The notes beneath the pieces were generated by a model that did no database searches, had not been told where the DNA came from, and worked only from the letters and a program-made list of their open reading frames with translations. Positions 43,636 through 54,357 of a stretch of 64,000 bases of DNA are shown here, piece after piece (position 1 is the first letter of the stretch; each line of letters starts with the position of its first letter). This DNA is from Bolinopsis microptera (taxonomy: Eukaryota > Ctenophora > Tentaculata > Lobata > Bolinopsidae): positions 5,389,246 through 5,453,245 of the forward strand of contig NC_087081.1 in NCBI RefSeq assembly GCF_026151205.1. The letters run 5' to 3'. The position numbers were made by a program, and so were the translations under genes.

Positions 43636-46600
43636 TCAAGCAAACACCTCAGGAGACTCATCAGGGTTCGCATTGATTTTGTCGTATGAACCTGGTTGTT
43701 TGGTTTCTGAGAGGACGGGGAGTATCCCTTTCTTCCAGTCCCACTTCGTTGTGATAGCTTCATCTACTTTGTATACCTGTAAAATAACAGGTTAACTTAT
43801 AGTTATTAACTTAAAATATTAAATTAACTTAAAGCTATTAAATTATATTACAGTGCATATGGAGAGCAGATTTCAATCCCGAAATAAAATCACATTTTCA
43901 ATATTTTAAAGCCAGTTTGGAGAAAAACTAGCTAAAACATTTCCTTGTGTTTGGAAATTGACAAGTACTTACCCCCTTATCTCTGTTATGACGCTTAAAG
44001 AGGATGCACCCAATGAGAAGGACTATAATTATCACTAAAATAACTACTCCTATGATAATATAAGGAAGATTGCTTTTCTTGTTAACTACCGGCTGCGCCT
44101 GAGGAGTTTAAATGTGATGTCATCTACCTCATAAAAATCAATTATTATGGTATTGGATAACCGTTTTGGAAAATGTTACCGTATTACGACTAGATAAAGT
44201 AATTAATCATTGTGAACATATGATTGAACTAAAAAAGGTGAGGCTAAATTAGGAATGAAGTTAACCTTCTGAAGTATGGCACAAATAAGGGTTTTGATTC
44301 TGAATAATATAACAAGGCTTATTTAGTTTTAAACTTACAGTTGACATGATTGGCTGCGTGGTGGGAGGTTTAGTGGTGGGTGGAGGGGTGGTTACTATAT
44401 CAATATCACCCCACAGGAACGGCAACACCGCTGAGCACCCGTCGTCATCTATTTCTGTAAAGATTTTAAGTATGTTAATGAGAAGTGAATCGTAGAGTTT
44501 AACTGAAACCTTTTCTTTAAAATCAAAACTTTTATTGTTTTTATCTTTCAATCTCACTTCCACTTACCCTCCATAATCATCTCTCCTCGCGCAGGCAAAC
44601 TTCCGGTTGCTACGGCAAAGAGATCGTCTCTGTTGAATACAGCATCTGGAACGTTATAAAACATATTATTATTAAGTTATTAGAATAGAATATAACTATA
44701 AAACATGTTATTCATAGAATATAACAGAATATAATAAAATTACTTAATGGTGGTTAGATCTAGACCTTGAAATAACTCATCGATACATTTTTCCATGACT
44801 GCGTAATTAACTAAATCCACAAATCAAATATTACATAATCATTAATAAATCATATTAATTTATTGTAATCAATTATACATACCAGCCATGCAGCCTTGAA
44901 ACAGATCTCCCGTCAAATAATGGCCCAGAATATACTCCTGTGGCTTAAAGAACATCACGTTATCTCCGACTGAAATAGTTGTTAATGATTAGTTGTTAGT
45001 TGGTCAGGTTAGTGGGTTCTATTTATACTCACTTAGCTAAAATCTTGGTAAAAAGTCACACGTATGTCTCAATGTCTGGATATCTACAACTTTCAGAATA
45101 TTTCAATAATTCCCGTTAAAATGGAAGGTAAATTAGGCGACCTATTAGGCCGTTTAACATTCATATCCCTAATGTAACCACAGACAAGTCAACGATTTAA
45201 GGTCACACATTATACTACCCAGAACTAACTAGCGCTATTTAAAATGCGTAGAAAACTTACTCTCAGTGAAATTAACAGAAATCTTCTCGATAGTGTCCAC
45301 TCCGTTGATTCTCAGTAGGACCTTGTGGTTCTTCCTCAGTATCTGTATAGTAGAACTAGTTCCCAGAGGGAGGACCTCCTCACTGACAGTCTCAAACTCT
45401 GCTATGTTGTCCCCGTGTGTGAGGTGCATTATTACTTTTACTGTCCCGTTTACCTGAGGGCAATTTTAAATAAATTTTATGGGTGATGATTTGAAGTTAT
45501 TTGTGGTAATCAATTATTCGTTTTGACAGCTGTTGCACGTGCGCTTGTCACGTGACGCTTTAATTTTACAATTTTACCTTCATTATTTAATGCACGTTAA
45601 CAAAACCTACCAGTGAGATATCCCAGAAGTTAGCTAATTCAGGATCATCCATCAACATCCCTCCTTCTATTCGTATCAACCTGAGTGCAAATTAAACTTT
45701 AAACTTAATGTTTCTATTACTGCCGTACCGGCTACGTATTATTAAATTTTGAAACATTTCTCACATTGGAAGATAAGTTTAACTTTTTAAATGACTCAAT
45801 GGACGAAGTATAATCAAGGCCAGTCGCGTAACGCGTTAACAATTACCTAGCATTGAGAGTATCAGGCTTGATGGTCATGGATAGTTTGTCAGTGTAAGTA
45901 GACTTGGTTCTCTGCAGGGTGTACCTCATTGCGGAGTGCTGGCTAAATGACACTGCAGCAGCTGGAAAATAGATTGAGTTTAGTAAAAGTTAAGTTGTGT
46001 CGTGTTTTGCATAAAAATAACACTTTGTTCATTAAATAGAAAGTGTATTTTTACGGAAATGAAAGGAACTGCAGTCGAAAATAAAATTGATAAAAAATCG
46101 AATTTCGCAATAATTGGAATATTTATAGAAAGAAATATTGTAGTCGTAAAACTGAATAATCAAAGGACAAAAGACCAATTTAGGTTAAAAAAATCAAATC
46201 GCAACATCTATTTTTTATCTATTATTATACTCTAGTAGCAGGGCATAGTTGAGTGTGCACTTCGATGTATACGATTTCTGACAACACAGGGTTGTTTGTT
46301 AGGTCATTATAAACCAGAATCGTTTAGGTGGACAATTTGTTTCGCTAGAGACAACCCTACAGGGCAAATTTTCTAAATTACCCTCAGTCGCGTATACGGG
46401 ATTTTTGTATTTCGGCTCCTGAAGGTCATGGAGACTTTATTTTTGGCGTAAAATTACCGCAGTGGCCATATTTATATACAACTTATTAATCAATGTATGG
46501 TCTAAAATTGTTTTTTCCCGAGATATCTGCAAAAAACTAATTTAAGCTCAGGCGTAGGCACAAATTTCATCAAATTTGTATCTCAGCTTCTGAAGTTCTT

Positions 46601-52600: not shown

Positions 52601-54357
52601 AACTAACCCGTCAAGACAGAAGTAGGTAGCCTTGCTGCCCACATCGTAAGAAGCGTACTCCACCCGTCCGTTAGAAGGGGGGTCCAGCTTACCACACCCA
52701 CACGGTCTGTTAACATGAAGGGGTTGCACTCCAGCTGTAAGAGGTTATTAGATAAGAGGTTGTTTAAAGATAAGAGGTTGTTAGATAAGCTAATAAGGAG
52801 GGGGATCAGATTAGGGTTCTTAGTATTTTAACCATCACATTTTAATAATAATTTCGTAACATCGTTTTCCAAAGAATTTTTTCCATTTCGGACAAATGGG
52901 ATGGGGGTGTTCTAGAAATGATACAATGAAAAGTTATTTAATTAATTAACTAATTAAATAATTATCTAATACGACTTACGGAGAGGTTCCCAGTTGGAGA
53001 TATCATTGTAAGTATCTCCCCCAGGACAAGAAGGTCCCAGTATCCCAGCTCCGCTTTTTAAGGCTGGTACACATGTAAACATCATACAAAACTGTGAGTC
53101 TATGTTGATTCCTTCCGCTTGGTAACCCTGTGAAGTATAAATGTAGTTAGTTACTTACATAACTTAGTAAATTGTTGAAAACATGGAATAGCTGATGCAT
53201 TTAAGTTTAATGGTGTGTAAAAGACATATTTCAAAGAAAACGTTACAAAGCTCAAAATTCATATGAAGATCGTATGGATTATTAAGGTATTAATGATCAA
53301 TTAATAAATTACCAATTTAATGATGTCTAGGATGGCTTGTTTTGCTCCAGCAGATATTCCGGAACTGAAATCCCCAAGATACGCTATTCCAAGTGCGCTG
53401 CTAGCGTACTTTGACGTGAAACTTCCCTGCGAATTACCATTTCATTAATTAATCTTACGAATTATTAAAATCTTTAATAGCTGTTCATCGGTTAACTGCT
53501 TTGATGTAGGGCTGCAGGTGATTGTAATTTTGCATTTAAAAGACGTCATTTTTGCGATTAACTACGATAGTAAATAAGGTACCCGTAGTCAAGAAACTGT
53601 GCGGAGTGCAGCGCTTAAAGTAATTAACATTAACCTTTTTAATTTTTACAGGACGTGTATTAATTTACATTCAACTATTGAGTATTGACTACAACTAAGT
53701 GATCGAATTAGGAAACAAATCCATCCAAGATGTGCTCCTTTATCAATCAATTAAACTACAATTAAAACAACCATTAACTATAAGTATAACGTACCTGTCT
53801 GGTCCACCCCACACCCTCATAAACATCCCCCATGCTGCTCACATAGAAGTTGAACTTCAGATCCGGATTTCCAGCTCCAATATCTCGCTGTTGAAGCGAC
53901 CGGAGAAATATCTGACAAGCTTCCATTGTGGTGCACTCAGCGGCTCCTGGGACGACTGTTGTGTAATGTTAGGGTTGAGAAAGTGCGACCTTTGTCACGT
54001 CTACTTATTTGGTGGGGAAGTGGTTAGTGGTACCCAATCTGTGGGCACAGGGGTCTCAAATTTCTTCTTCAGTTATAACTTCATGTGATTAAGATATGCG
54101 GATGATATAATGGATAATTGTTGTTGAACTTGTTGGAAAACCACTGCCTATATAAAACGAGTCAATTTTAAATTGCAGTTCTCAGATTGTGAAGTTTAAC
54201 AAGAAAGCAACTAACCCTCATTTCCGATAACGATATCAGTTATCCTGGTTAGAGATACCCCGGCAGTGTCGGTAGGCTCAGCTCCCCAGTCGTATCTTTT
54301 AACAATATCCAGAGAGGAGGATAGAGGGAGGAGGGTTAGCAGGGCTAACAGTATCAT
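43636..54357 (-). CDS. Single-pass membrane protein: PGRP-CCP-PGRP-kringle-LamG-TM
   Basis: Twenty exons in phase, 842 residues: 54357-54216, 53955-53795, 53426-53313, 53127-52980, 52734-52608, 52231-52146, 51861-51714, 51570-51450, 51286-51162, 50754-50588, 50360-50227, 49857-49728, 45961-45847, 45680-45611, 45453-45261, 44969-44883, 44645-44568, 44454-44339, 44098-43973, 43776-43636. Signal peptide 1-15. PGRP-1 about 20-188 (RYDWGAEP, GDVYEGVGW, GPSCPGG). CCP about 200-260 (PPSNGRVEY, GAWGD). PGRP-2 about 262-430 (GIVYEGRGW, TKCPGS). Kringle about 448-534 (WLNYQGTKSVSVSGCPCLAW, NFCRNPD, WCITDSS). Laminin G about 540-715. Thr/Pro stalk, TM about 765-788, 54-residue tail. Both PGRPs lack the usual HHT zinc motif (IGNE and FVDV instead), so they should bind rather than cleave peptidoglycan. 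Likely a surface recognition receptor; no kinase, TIR or death domain in the tail. Confidence 0.92.
46229..49012. mobile_element. 2.8-kb near-palindromic foldback element in an intron
   Basis: Left end ACTCTAGTAGCAGGGCATAG; right end is its complement ...CCTGCTACTAGAGT. Inverted similarity runs inward almost to the middle (about 47970), with arms over 1 kb, interrupted by a CCCGGTCC-type minisatellite at about 48220-48330 present only in the right arm. ORFs inside (47185, 47672, 48140) are low-complexity and carry no transposase signature. It lies in the intron between the kringle and laminin-G exons. Confidence 0.85.
50053..50216. repeat. 18-bp tandem repeat (TAATTAGTAATTACCATG)n
   Basis: About nine near-perfect copies, in the intron just downstream of the first kringle exon donor. 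The unit is rich in palindromic TAATTA and GTAATTAC. Confidence 0.97.
52340..52606. repeat. (ACTA)n tetranucleotide array forming part of a 5' splice site
   Basis: About 265 bp. On the gene strand it reads (GTTA)n and begins exactly at the donor of the first CCP exon (GACGG|GTTAGT), so the intron side of that splice site is microsatellite. Confidence 0.95.

Follow-up and report, generated by a model that had tools for sequence, protein, structure and literature searches.

A predicted membrane receptor of the comb jelly Bolinopsis microptera combining two PGRP domains with a neurexin/syndecan-like membrane end

In a 64,000-nucleotide window of the genome of the ctenophore Bolinopsis microptera (assembly GCF_026151205.1, contig NC_087081.1, positions 5,389,246 to 5,453,245 of the forward strand), we found a single intact gene that encodes a membrane-anchored, multi-domain PGRP protein. 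The reading that we favour, and to which we give about an even chance, is that of a non-catalytic, membrane-anchored recognition or adhesion receptor, in which a PGRP-bearing rod would be carried on a neurexin/syndecan-like chassis. It is the LamG-stalk-transmembrane-tail end, similar to that of neurexin and syndecan, that makes adhesion, rather than generic immune reception, the likeliest working of this protein.

Gene model and domain order

The gene model was rebuilt from the sequence. The gene runs on the minus strand from an ATG at 54357 to a TGA ending at 43636, and its 20 exons sum to 2,529 nt (843 codons with the stop), which gives a protein of 842 amino acids (aa) with no internal stops. 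GT-AG borders were found at all 19 introns, and an in-frame stop is located 9 nt 5′ of the ATG. When each exon was scored with the codon usage of the remaining exons of the same gene, the proposed frame scored highest in 20 of the 20 exons. The margin was narrow for exon 12 (0.339 vs 0.319), and for exon 19, the transmembrane exon, the in-frame score was near zero (−0.007, with −0.947 and −0.661 for the other two frames). The GC content was 0.478 in the exons and 0.333 in the introns. A scan with Rfam gave 0 matches.

The protein is ordered as signal peptide, PGRP, CCP, PGRP, kringle, LamG, stalk, one transmembrane helix and a tail of 54 residues (Table 1). The 20 in-phase exons totalling 843 codons that had been proposed in the first-pass annotation were thus reproduced exactly. 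Its domain order, from signal peptide to transmembrane segment, agrees with the Pfam and PDB matches and with hydropathy, and the membrane topology that it proposed is borne out by one helix at about residues 767-788 together with a hydrophobic N-terminus.

Table 1. Coordinates in the window of the receptor gene, its domains and its longest intron
Feature	Position	Strand	Basis
Whole gene, start codon to stop, 20 exons, 842 aa	43636..54357	-	Splice sites, frame, codon score
Signal peptide, ~aa 1-16, exon 1	54310..54357	-	Hydrophobic N-terminus; cleavage site inferred by eye
PGRP domain 1 (PGRP-1), aa 17-188, exons 1-4	52980..54309	-	PDB 4z8i E 1.5e-15
CCP/Sushi domain, aa 189-259, exons 5-6, phase-1 introns both sides	52146..52734	-	Pfam PF00084 E 4.1e-7
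PGRP domain 2 (PGRP-2), aa 260-446, exons 7-10	50588..51861	-	PDB 4z8i E 5.7e-10, 2r2k E 4.4e-8
Kringle, aa 447-534, exons 11-12, phase-1 introns both sides	49728..50360	-	Pfam PF00051 E 5.2e-17
Intron 12, 3,766 bp	45962..49727	-	Longest intron; AATAAA four times
Dispersed foldback element in intron 12	46227..49014	.	537-nt arms, 98% complementary
Laminin-G (LNS), aa 535 to ~724, exons 13-18	44429..45961	-	Pfam PF00054 E 5.4e-6 alone; neurexin-1 LNS E 0.0097
Thr/Pro-rich stalk, ~aa 725-766, exons 18-19	44063..44428	-	Sequence
Transmembrane helix, ~aa 767-788, exon 19	43997..44062	-	Hydropathy; ends by eye
Cytoplasmic tail, aa 789-842, exons 19-20	43639..43996	-	KRHNRDKGVYKVDE band-4.1-type-like; YDKI aa 827-830; EVFA C-terminal
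C-terminal EVFA, possible class II PDZ ligand	43639..43650	-	Sequence, compared with EFYA/EYYV

PGRP domains, membrane end and proposed function

Among the PDB sequences, the two PGRP domains match amphioxus, mammalian and insect PGRPs. PGRP-1 matches amphioxus PGRP3 (PDB 4z8i) at E = 1.5e-15, and PGRP-2 matches 4z8i at E = 5.7e-10 and 2r2k at E = 4.4e-8. The assignment rests on these matches because the Pfam family Amidase_2 is below threshold or absent: on the whole protein it scored 24.0 bits, slightly below the cut-off of 26; when the domains were searched alone, no Pfam family was found for PGRP-1 up to E = 10, and for PGRP-2 the E-value was only 0.048. NCBIfam gave 0 families on the PGRP half. 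The profile searches did not refute the PGRP and kringle calls of the first-pass annotation: the kringle is over the Pfam cut-off, and the PGRP is slightly below it but significant against solved PGRPs. In the alignments to PGRPs, the structural cysteine pair is retained (Cys55/61 in PGRP-1 and Cys302/308 in PGRP-2), and the receptor's PGRP domains have the YEGxGW core seen in animal PGRPs. The two domains are homologous to each other, as none of 3000 shuffles reached their alignment score (z 17.4), and they have in common a phase-0 intron directly after the stretch following YEGxGW.

When PGRP-1 was aligned with amphioxus PGRP3, the first His of IHH, which we take to be a zinc ligand, was found to be replaced by Gly45, the Tyr of YNF by Phe82 and the His of GHRD by Gly; no His is present within residues 120-188. 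In PGRP-2, the first His is replaced by Asp295 and the Tyr by Cys330, and by reading we found no His among the 27 residues preceding the CPG cysteine 405. The amidase site is given as two His, one Tyr and one Cys in an excerpt of PMC4610682. By these alignments, both PGRP domains are without the amidase histidines and tyrosine. As the zinc-site histidines and the tyrosine are gone from both, no cutting of peptidoglycan is predicted and the domains should be non-catalytic. An active amidase was rejected on the loss of these zinc-site residues.

Both the CCP and the kringle exceed their Pfam cut-offs, and the kringle also matches those of plasminogen and HGF. Cys473 and Cys521 are extra to the six cysteines of a standard kringle. 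Compared with the lysine-binding site of the plasminogen type, the first Asp and the Trp of GPWC are kept, the second Asp is displaced and a later aromatic residue is Met. By Pfam there is one CCP, which does not match the CCP arrays of complement regulators. The labels 'complement-like' and 'fibrinolysis-like', which had been attached to these modules, are not supported: the protein has just one CCP and one kringle, the latter with changes in its lysine site, and a binding or spacer role suits the two better.

The LamG domain is above the Pfam cut-off when searched alone (E = 5.4e-6) and below it within the whole-protein search (1.6e-4). It is the only LamG in the protein, and Pfam found no EGF family in the whole protein at E up to 1. 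When the stalk, transmembrane helix and tail were compared with PDB, neurexin-1 was the sole match below E = 0.1 (two sequences, E = 3.1e-5 and 3.3e-5; the next at 0.18), and in Pfam Syndecan was the top family (E = 3e-5; the next at 0.0039). In the same search, the Syndecan family scored 32.6 bits on the neurexin-1 segment and 31.4 bits on the tail of a neurexin-like gene of B. microptera itself. That gene (contig C3:17188512-17189399) was the single match to the neurexin-1 tail (E = 7.6e-4). One frame of it encodes a LamG-like end (by eye), a long Thr/Pro stalk, a transmembrane helix and then RFHFRDKGSYKLEE...EWYL, with a 4.1-type motif after the helix; Pfam gave no LamG family on this frame. 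None of 5000 shuffles reached the score of the receptor tail aligned with the neurexin-1 tail, and 1 of 5000 reached the score with the tail of the local neurexin-like gene. The C-terminal PDZ ligands of syndecan and neurexin are EFYA and EYYV, respectively, and the EVFA of the receptor resembles them. Taken from these comparisons, the LamG-stalk-transmembrane-tail end resembles that of neurexin and syndecan. The RHIM-like pattern [IVL]Q[IVLCA]G, used as a simple pattern and not a profile, is absent across the whole receptor protein, and IMD-type signalling was rejected on this ground.

Several observations weigh against this interpretation. The cysteine of the amidase position is kept in both PGRP domains (Cys173 as aligned, Cys405 by the CPG motif only), Asp295 of PGRP-2 could in principle hold a metal, and PGRP-2 is degenerate and divergent. 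At the membrane end, neurexin-1 is the nearest LNS match in PDB, but a weak one (E = 0.0097); the best single neurexin-1 stretch has an i-E of 0.001 with the transmembrane helix included, and the receptor tail without the helix found no neurexin in PDB at E up to 10. The Syndecan match, at 24.4 bits, is slightly below the cut-off of 25.2, and the local neurexin-like gene itself matches PDB neurexin-1 only weakly (E = 0.028).

The genome, in which 13 large contigs make up 258.07 of 264.65 Mb (97.5%; 219 others share 6.6 Mb), was searched exon by exon, a search in which distant relatives may be missed. With the active amphioxus PGRP domain, exon 2 of the receptor gene was found at E = 1.2e-5, followed by three matches at E = 1.8-2.0. 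PGRP-2 and LamG each found the receptor gene's own exons only (5 matches each). The whole protein, at E up to 1, gave at least 62 matches (the best 54 of 127 candidates were scored); among those listed, 20 are at the receptor gene and the 42 elsewhere all overlap the kringle part of the query. Pfam PF01510 gave 0 matches even at the receptor gene, whose exons were searched apart, and was not used as evidence. At this search sensitivity, the receptor gene appears to be the sole PGRP gene found in this genome.

Two other kringle frames were seen in these searches. The best-scoring listed kringle match outside the receptor gene is in an open frame of 565 aa (contig C8:14422379-14425663; 805-2502 of that stretch), which holds two kringles and, by eye, a papain-like cysteine protease region and ShKT-like cysteine-rich ends. 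At contig C11:16207738-16212048 (minus strand), a single open frame of 1,593 aa has at least 16 kringle matches.

All four junctions between modules (PGRP/CCP, CCP/PGRP, PGRP/kringle and kringle/LamG, at residues 188, 259, 446 and 534) are phase-1 introns. Phase 1 is found in 8 of the 19 introns overall, and the chance of four out of four is C(8,4)/C(19,4) = 0.018, which is an after-the-fact count. The phase-1 intron after exon 17 was not counted as a junction, since the LamG end extends past it, with Cys722 encoded in exon 18. Together with the homology of the two PGRP domains, the phase-1 junctions fit a shuffling of class 1-1 modules and a duplication of the PGRP unit, as far as the sequence can suggest it. 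A recent bacterial transfer or contamination was rejected, given the 19 introns and the chromosome-scale contig. When PGRP-1 was compared with a prokaryote genome collection, tblastn gave no relative among 40 pattern matches, in a scan that finds close relatives only.

We propose that one ctenophore gene, built by exon shuffling, may give rise to a type I membrane receptor. Its outer half, with the order PGRP-CCP-PGRP-kringle, would form a recognition rod, in which the PGRP domains would bind, but not cut, fragments of peptidoglycan or else some other glycan or peptide. Its inner half, made up of LamG, Thr/Pro stalk, transmembrane helix and tail, would act as the neurexin/syndecan-like chassis; the tail would couple the bound ligand to the cortical cytoskeleton and to scaffolds via a putative band-4.1-type motif and a possible PDZ ligand at the C-terminus, and YDKI might signal uptake. 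Such a protein may sit on epithelium or phagocytes and contact, capture or adhere to bacteria, working neither as an amidase nor through an IMD-type RHIM motif. Its ligand, adaptors, cell type and signalling are named here as we infer them.

Alternatively, the gene might encode a neurexin/Caspr-like cell-cell adhesion protein, whose PGRP domains have turned to a host protein or glycan as their ligand and do not sense bacteria. The neurexin/syndecan-like membrane end, the loss of the amidase histidines and tyrosine from both domains, and the finding of one PGRP gene with no catalytic partner would all fit this idea. However, two PGRP domains have been kept with recognisable fold signatures (the E-values of 1.5e-15 and 5.7e-10 above), and many non-catalytic PGRPs still bind peptidoglycan. 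We regard this alternative as rather unlikely, though it merits attention.

Drosophila PGRP-LF is a decoy or inhibitory receptor, and the comb jelly protein might likewise capture peptidoglycan, or pair with another receptor, without a signal of its own. As would be expected for such a protein, it has two PGRP domains on one membrane protein, lost amidase residues and no RHIM-like pattern. On the other hand, no second PGRP that it could oppose was found in the genome, and its tail has recognisable adaptor-type motifs, which makes a decoy distinctly unlikely in our view.

Intron 12 and the question of one gene or two

The foldback element of intron 12 is 2,788 bp long and makes up most of this intron, leaving a remainder of 978 bp. 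When its arm was searched genome-wide, at least 68 matches were found (the best 40 of 615 first-look candidates were scored), with identities of 67-100%. Among those listed, 66 are outside intron 12; they are spread over 11 of the 13 large contigs, often occurring as facing pairs 2-3 kb apart. The foldback element is a dispersed repeat.

The presence of a transposable element in the longest intron of the gene could mean that two neighbouring genes have been misjoined here, or that a second, secreted PGRP-CCP-PGRP-kringle product ends after exon 12, separate from the LamG membrane protein. Read-through of exon 12 runs for four codons before a stop, and an AATAAA is located 165 bp past the exon, whereas the 636 bp scanned past the proposed gene end showed only an ATTAAA, at a distance of 380 bp. 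However, the copy of AATAAA near exon 12 means little, because four of them occur in intron 12. Moreover, the 3′ half has no in-frame ATG 5′ of exon 13, where a stop is located 31 nt upstream, and both frame and phase continue from exon 12 to exon 13. As the LamG half lacks its own start, the phase is continuous and a dispersed element accounts for the intron, we rejected two genes misjoined at intron 12. We consider a separation into two genes or products very unlikely, and the sequence favours one gene rather than two; a short secreted form ending after exon 12 is possible. That the gene has decayed or is an assembly artefact, as the divergence of PGRP-2 might suggest, has a close to negligible probability in view of its 20 open exons, a codon score that is best in frame and its location within a chromosome-scale contig.

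Apart from the receptor gene, two further frames of the window were noted. At 7127-8929 (minus strand), an intronless frame of 601 aa matches the hydrogenase maturation protein HoxX/HypX over residues 25-599 (PDB 6j0p, E = 9e-97) and has formyltransferase and enoyl-CoA hydratase families, a possible horizontal transfer into a ctenophore chromosome. At 28557-29639 (plus strand), a frame of 361 aa looks by eye like the RNase H end of a non-LTR (long terminal repeat) retrotransposon. Elsewhere in the genome, an aequorin query gave 55 photoprotein matches, 51 of which lie in one frame and cover the query from residue 16 to 191 or 192. Tandem arrays of photoproteins with a unit of about 0.94-1.0 kb are located at C5:17012730-17026401, C13:11082451-11094340 and C1:21999412-22006929. 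The one photoprotein frame that was tested matched berovin (E = 2e-103) and mnemiopsin (6e-102), the only two PDB sequences below 1e-20.

Significance and comparison with known systems

Ctenophores are a lineage for which a position as sister group of all other animals has been argued. We hold it as a tentative possibility that the comb jelly's sole found PGRP is mounted on a neurexin-like adhesion chassis. On this view, peptidoglycan would be sensed through adhesive contact coupled to the cytoskeleton, with a single molecule serving both immune recognition and synapse-type adhesion. The case would be a pointed one because a role of Drosophila PGRP-LC in presynaptic homeostasis has been reported (Harris 2015, as cited in an excerpt of PMC8075586). 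If true, the PGRP module would go back to the animal stem or would have originated separately, although an excerpt of a review names a sponge and Nematostella as animals without PGRPs (PMC7308585). If the receptor binds peptidoglycan, ctenophores would own an adhesion-based surface sensor, and the age of animal PGRPs would become directly testable.

Each module of the receptor is known singly. We found no description of the combination of PGRP, CCP, kringle, LamG and a neurexin-like tail among the papers listed in our searches of the open-licence literature, and to that extent the earlier statement that the domain order is unfamiliar among described PGRPs stands. Predicted orthologues may well have been deposited in protein databases. 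PGRP-LC and PGRP-LF are known membrane-bound PGRPs. Transmembrane PGRPs are also mentioned, in an excerpt of PMC9835746, for brachiopods and molluscs. The 2025 survey of immune genes in three ctenophores (PMC11797021), in the portion available, reports no canonical Toll-like receptors in Mnemiopsis. The ctenophore receptors with SRCR and C-type lectin domains in that portion have, like the protein described here, unusual combinations of immune-type domains, CCP included; the terms PGRP, PGLYRP, kringle and laminin are absent from the main text of the survey.

With animal PGRPs such as amphioxus BbtPGRP3, mammalian PGLYRP1 and Drosophila PGRP-SA, PGRP-LC and PGRP-LF, the receptor has in common the fold signature, the cysteine pair and the YEGxGW core. 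It differs from them in the CCP between two PGRP domains, the kringle, the LamG, the neurexin/syndecan-like tail and the lack of the amidase histidines and tyrosine in both domains. It also differs in having no RHIM-like pattern, and in this simple pattern search the RHIM-like motif of PGRP-LC and PGRP-LE of the IMD pathway is absent from it. The amphioxus fusions of a chitin-binding domain (CBD) with a PGRP domain, BbtPGRP1-3, are similar in that a PGRP was joined with a second carbohydrate-type domain by shuffling; in contrast to the receptor, they are described in an excerpt of PMC4610682 as catalytic proteins with a signal peptide, one chitin-binding domain and one PGRP domain.

Compared with neurexin, Caspr and syndecan, the receptor differs in having one LamG, no EGF family by Pfam and, towards the N-terminus, a half built from PGRP, CCP and kringle domains, and the ectodomain of LNS and EGF repeats of neurexins proper is not matched. 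What it has in common with these proteins is an LNS-type LamG, a Thr/Pro stalk, a single transmembrane helix, a putative tail motif RDxGxYxVDE and a hydrophobic C-terminus.

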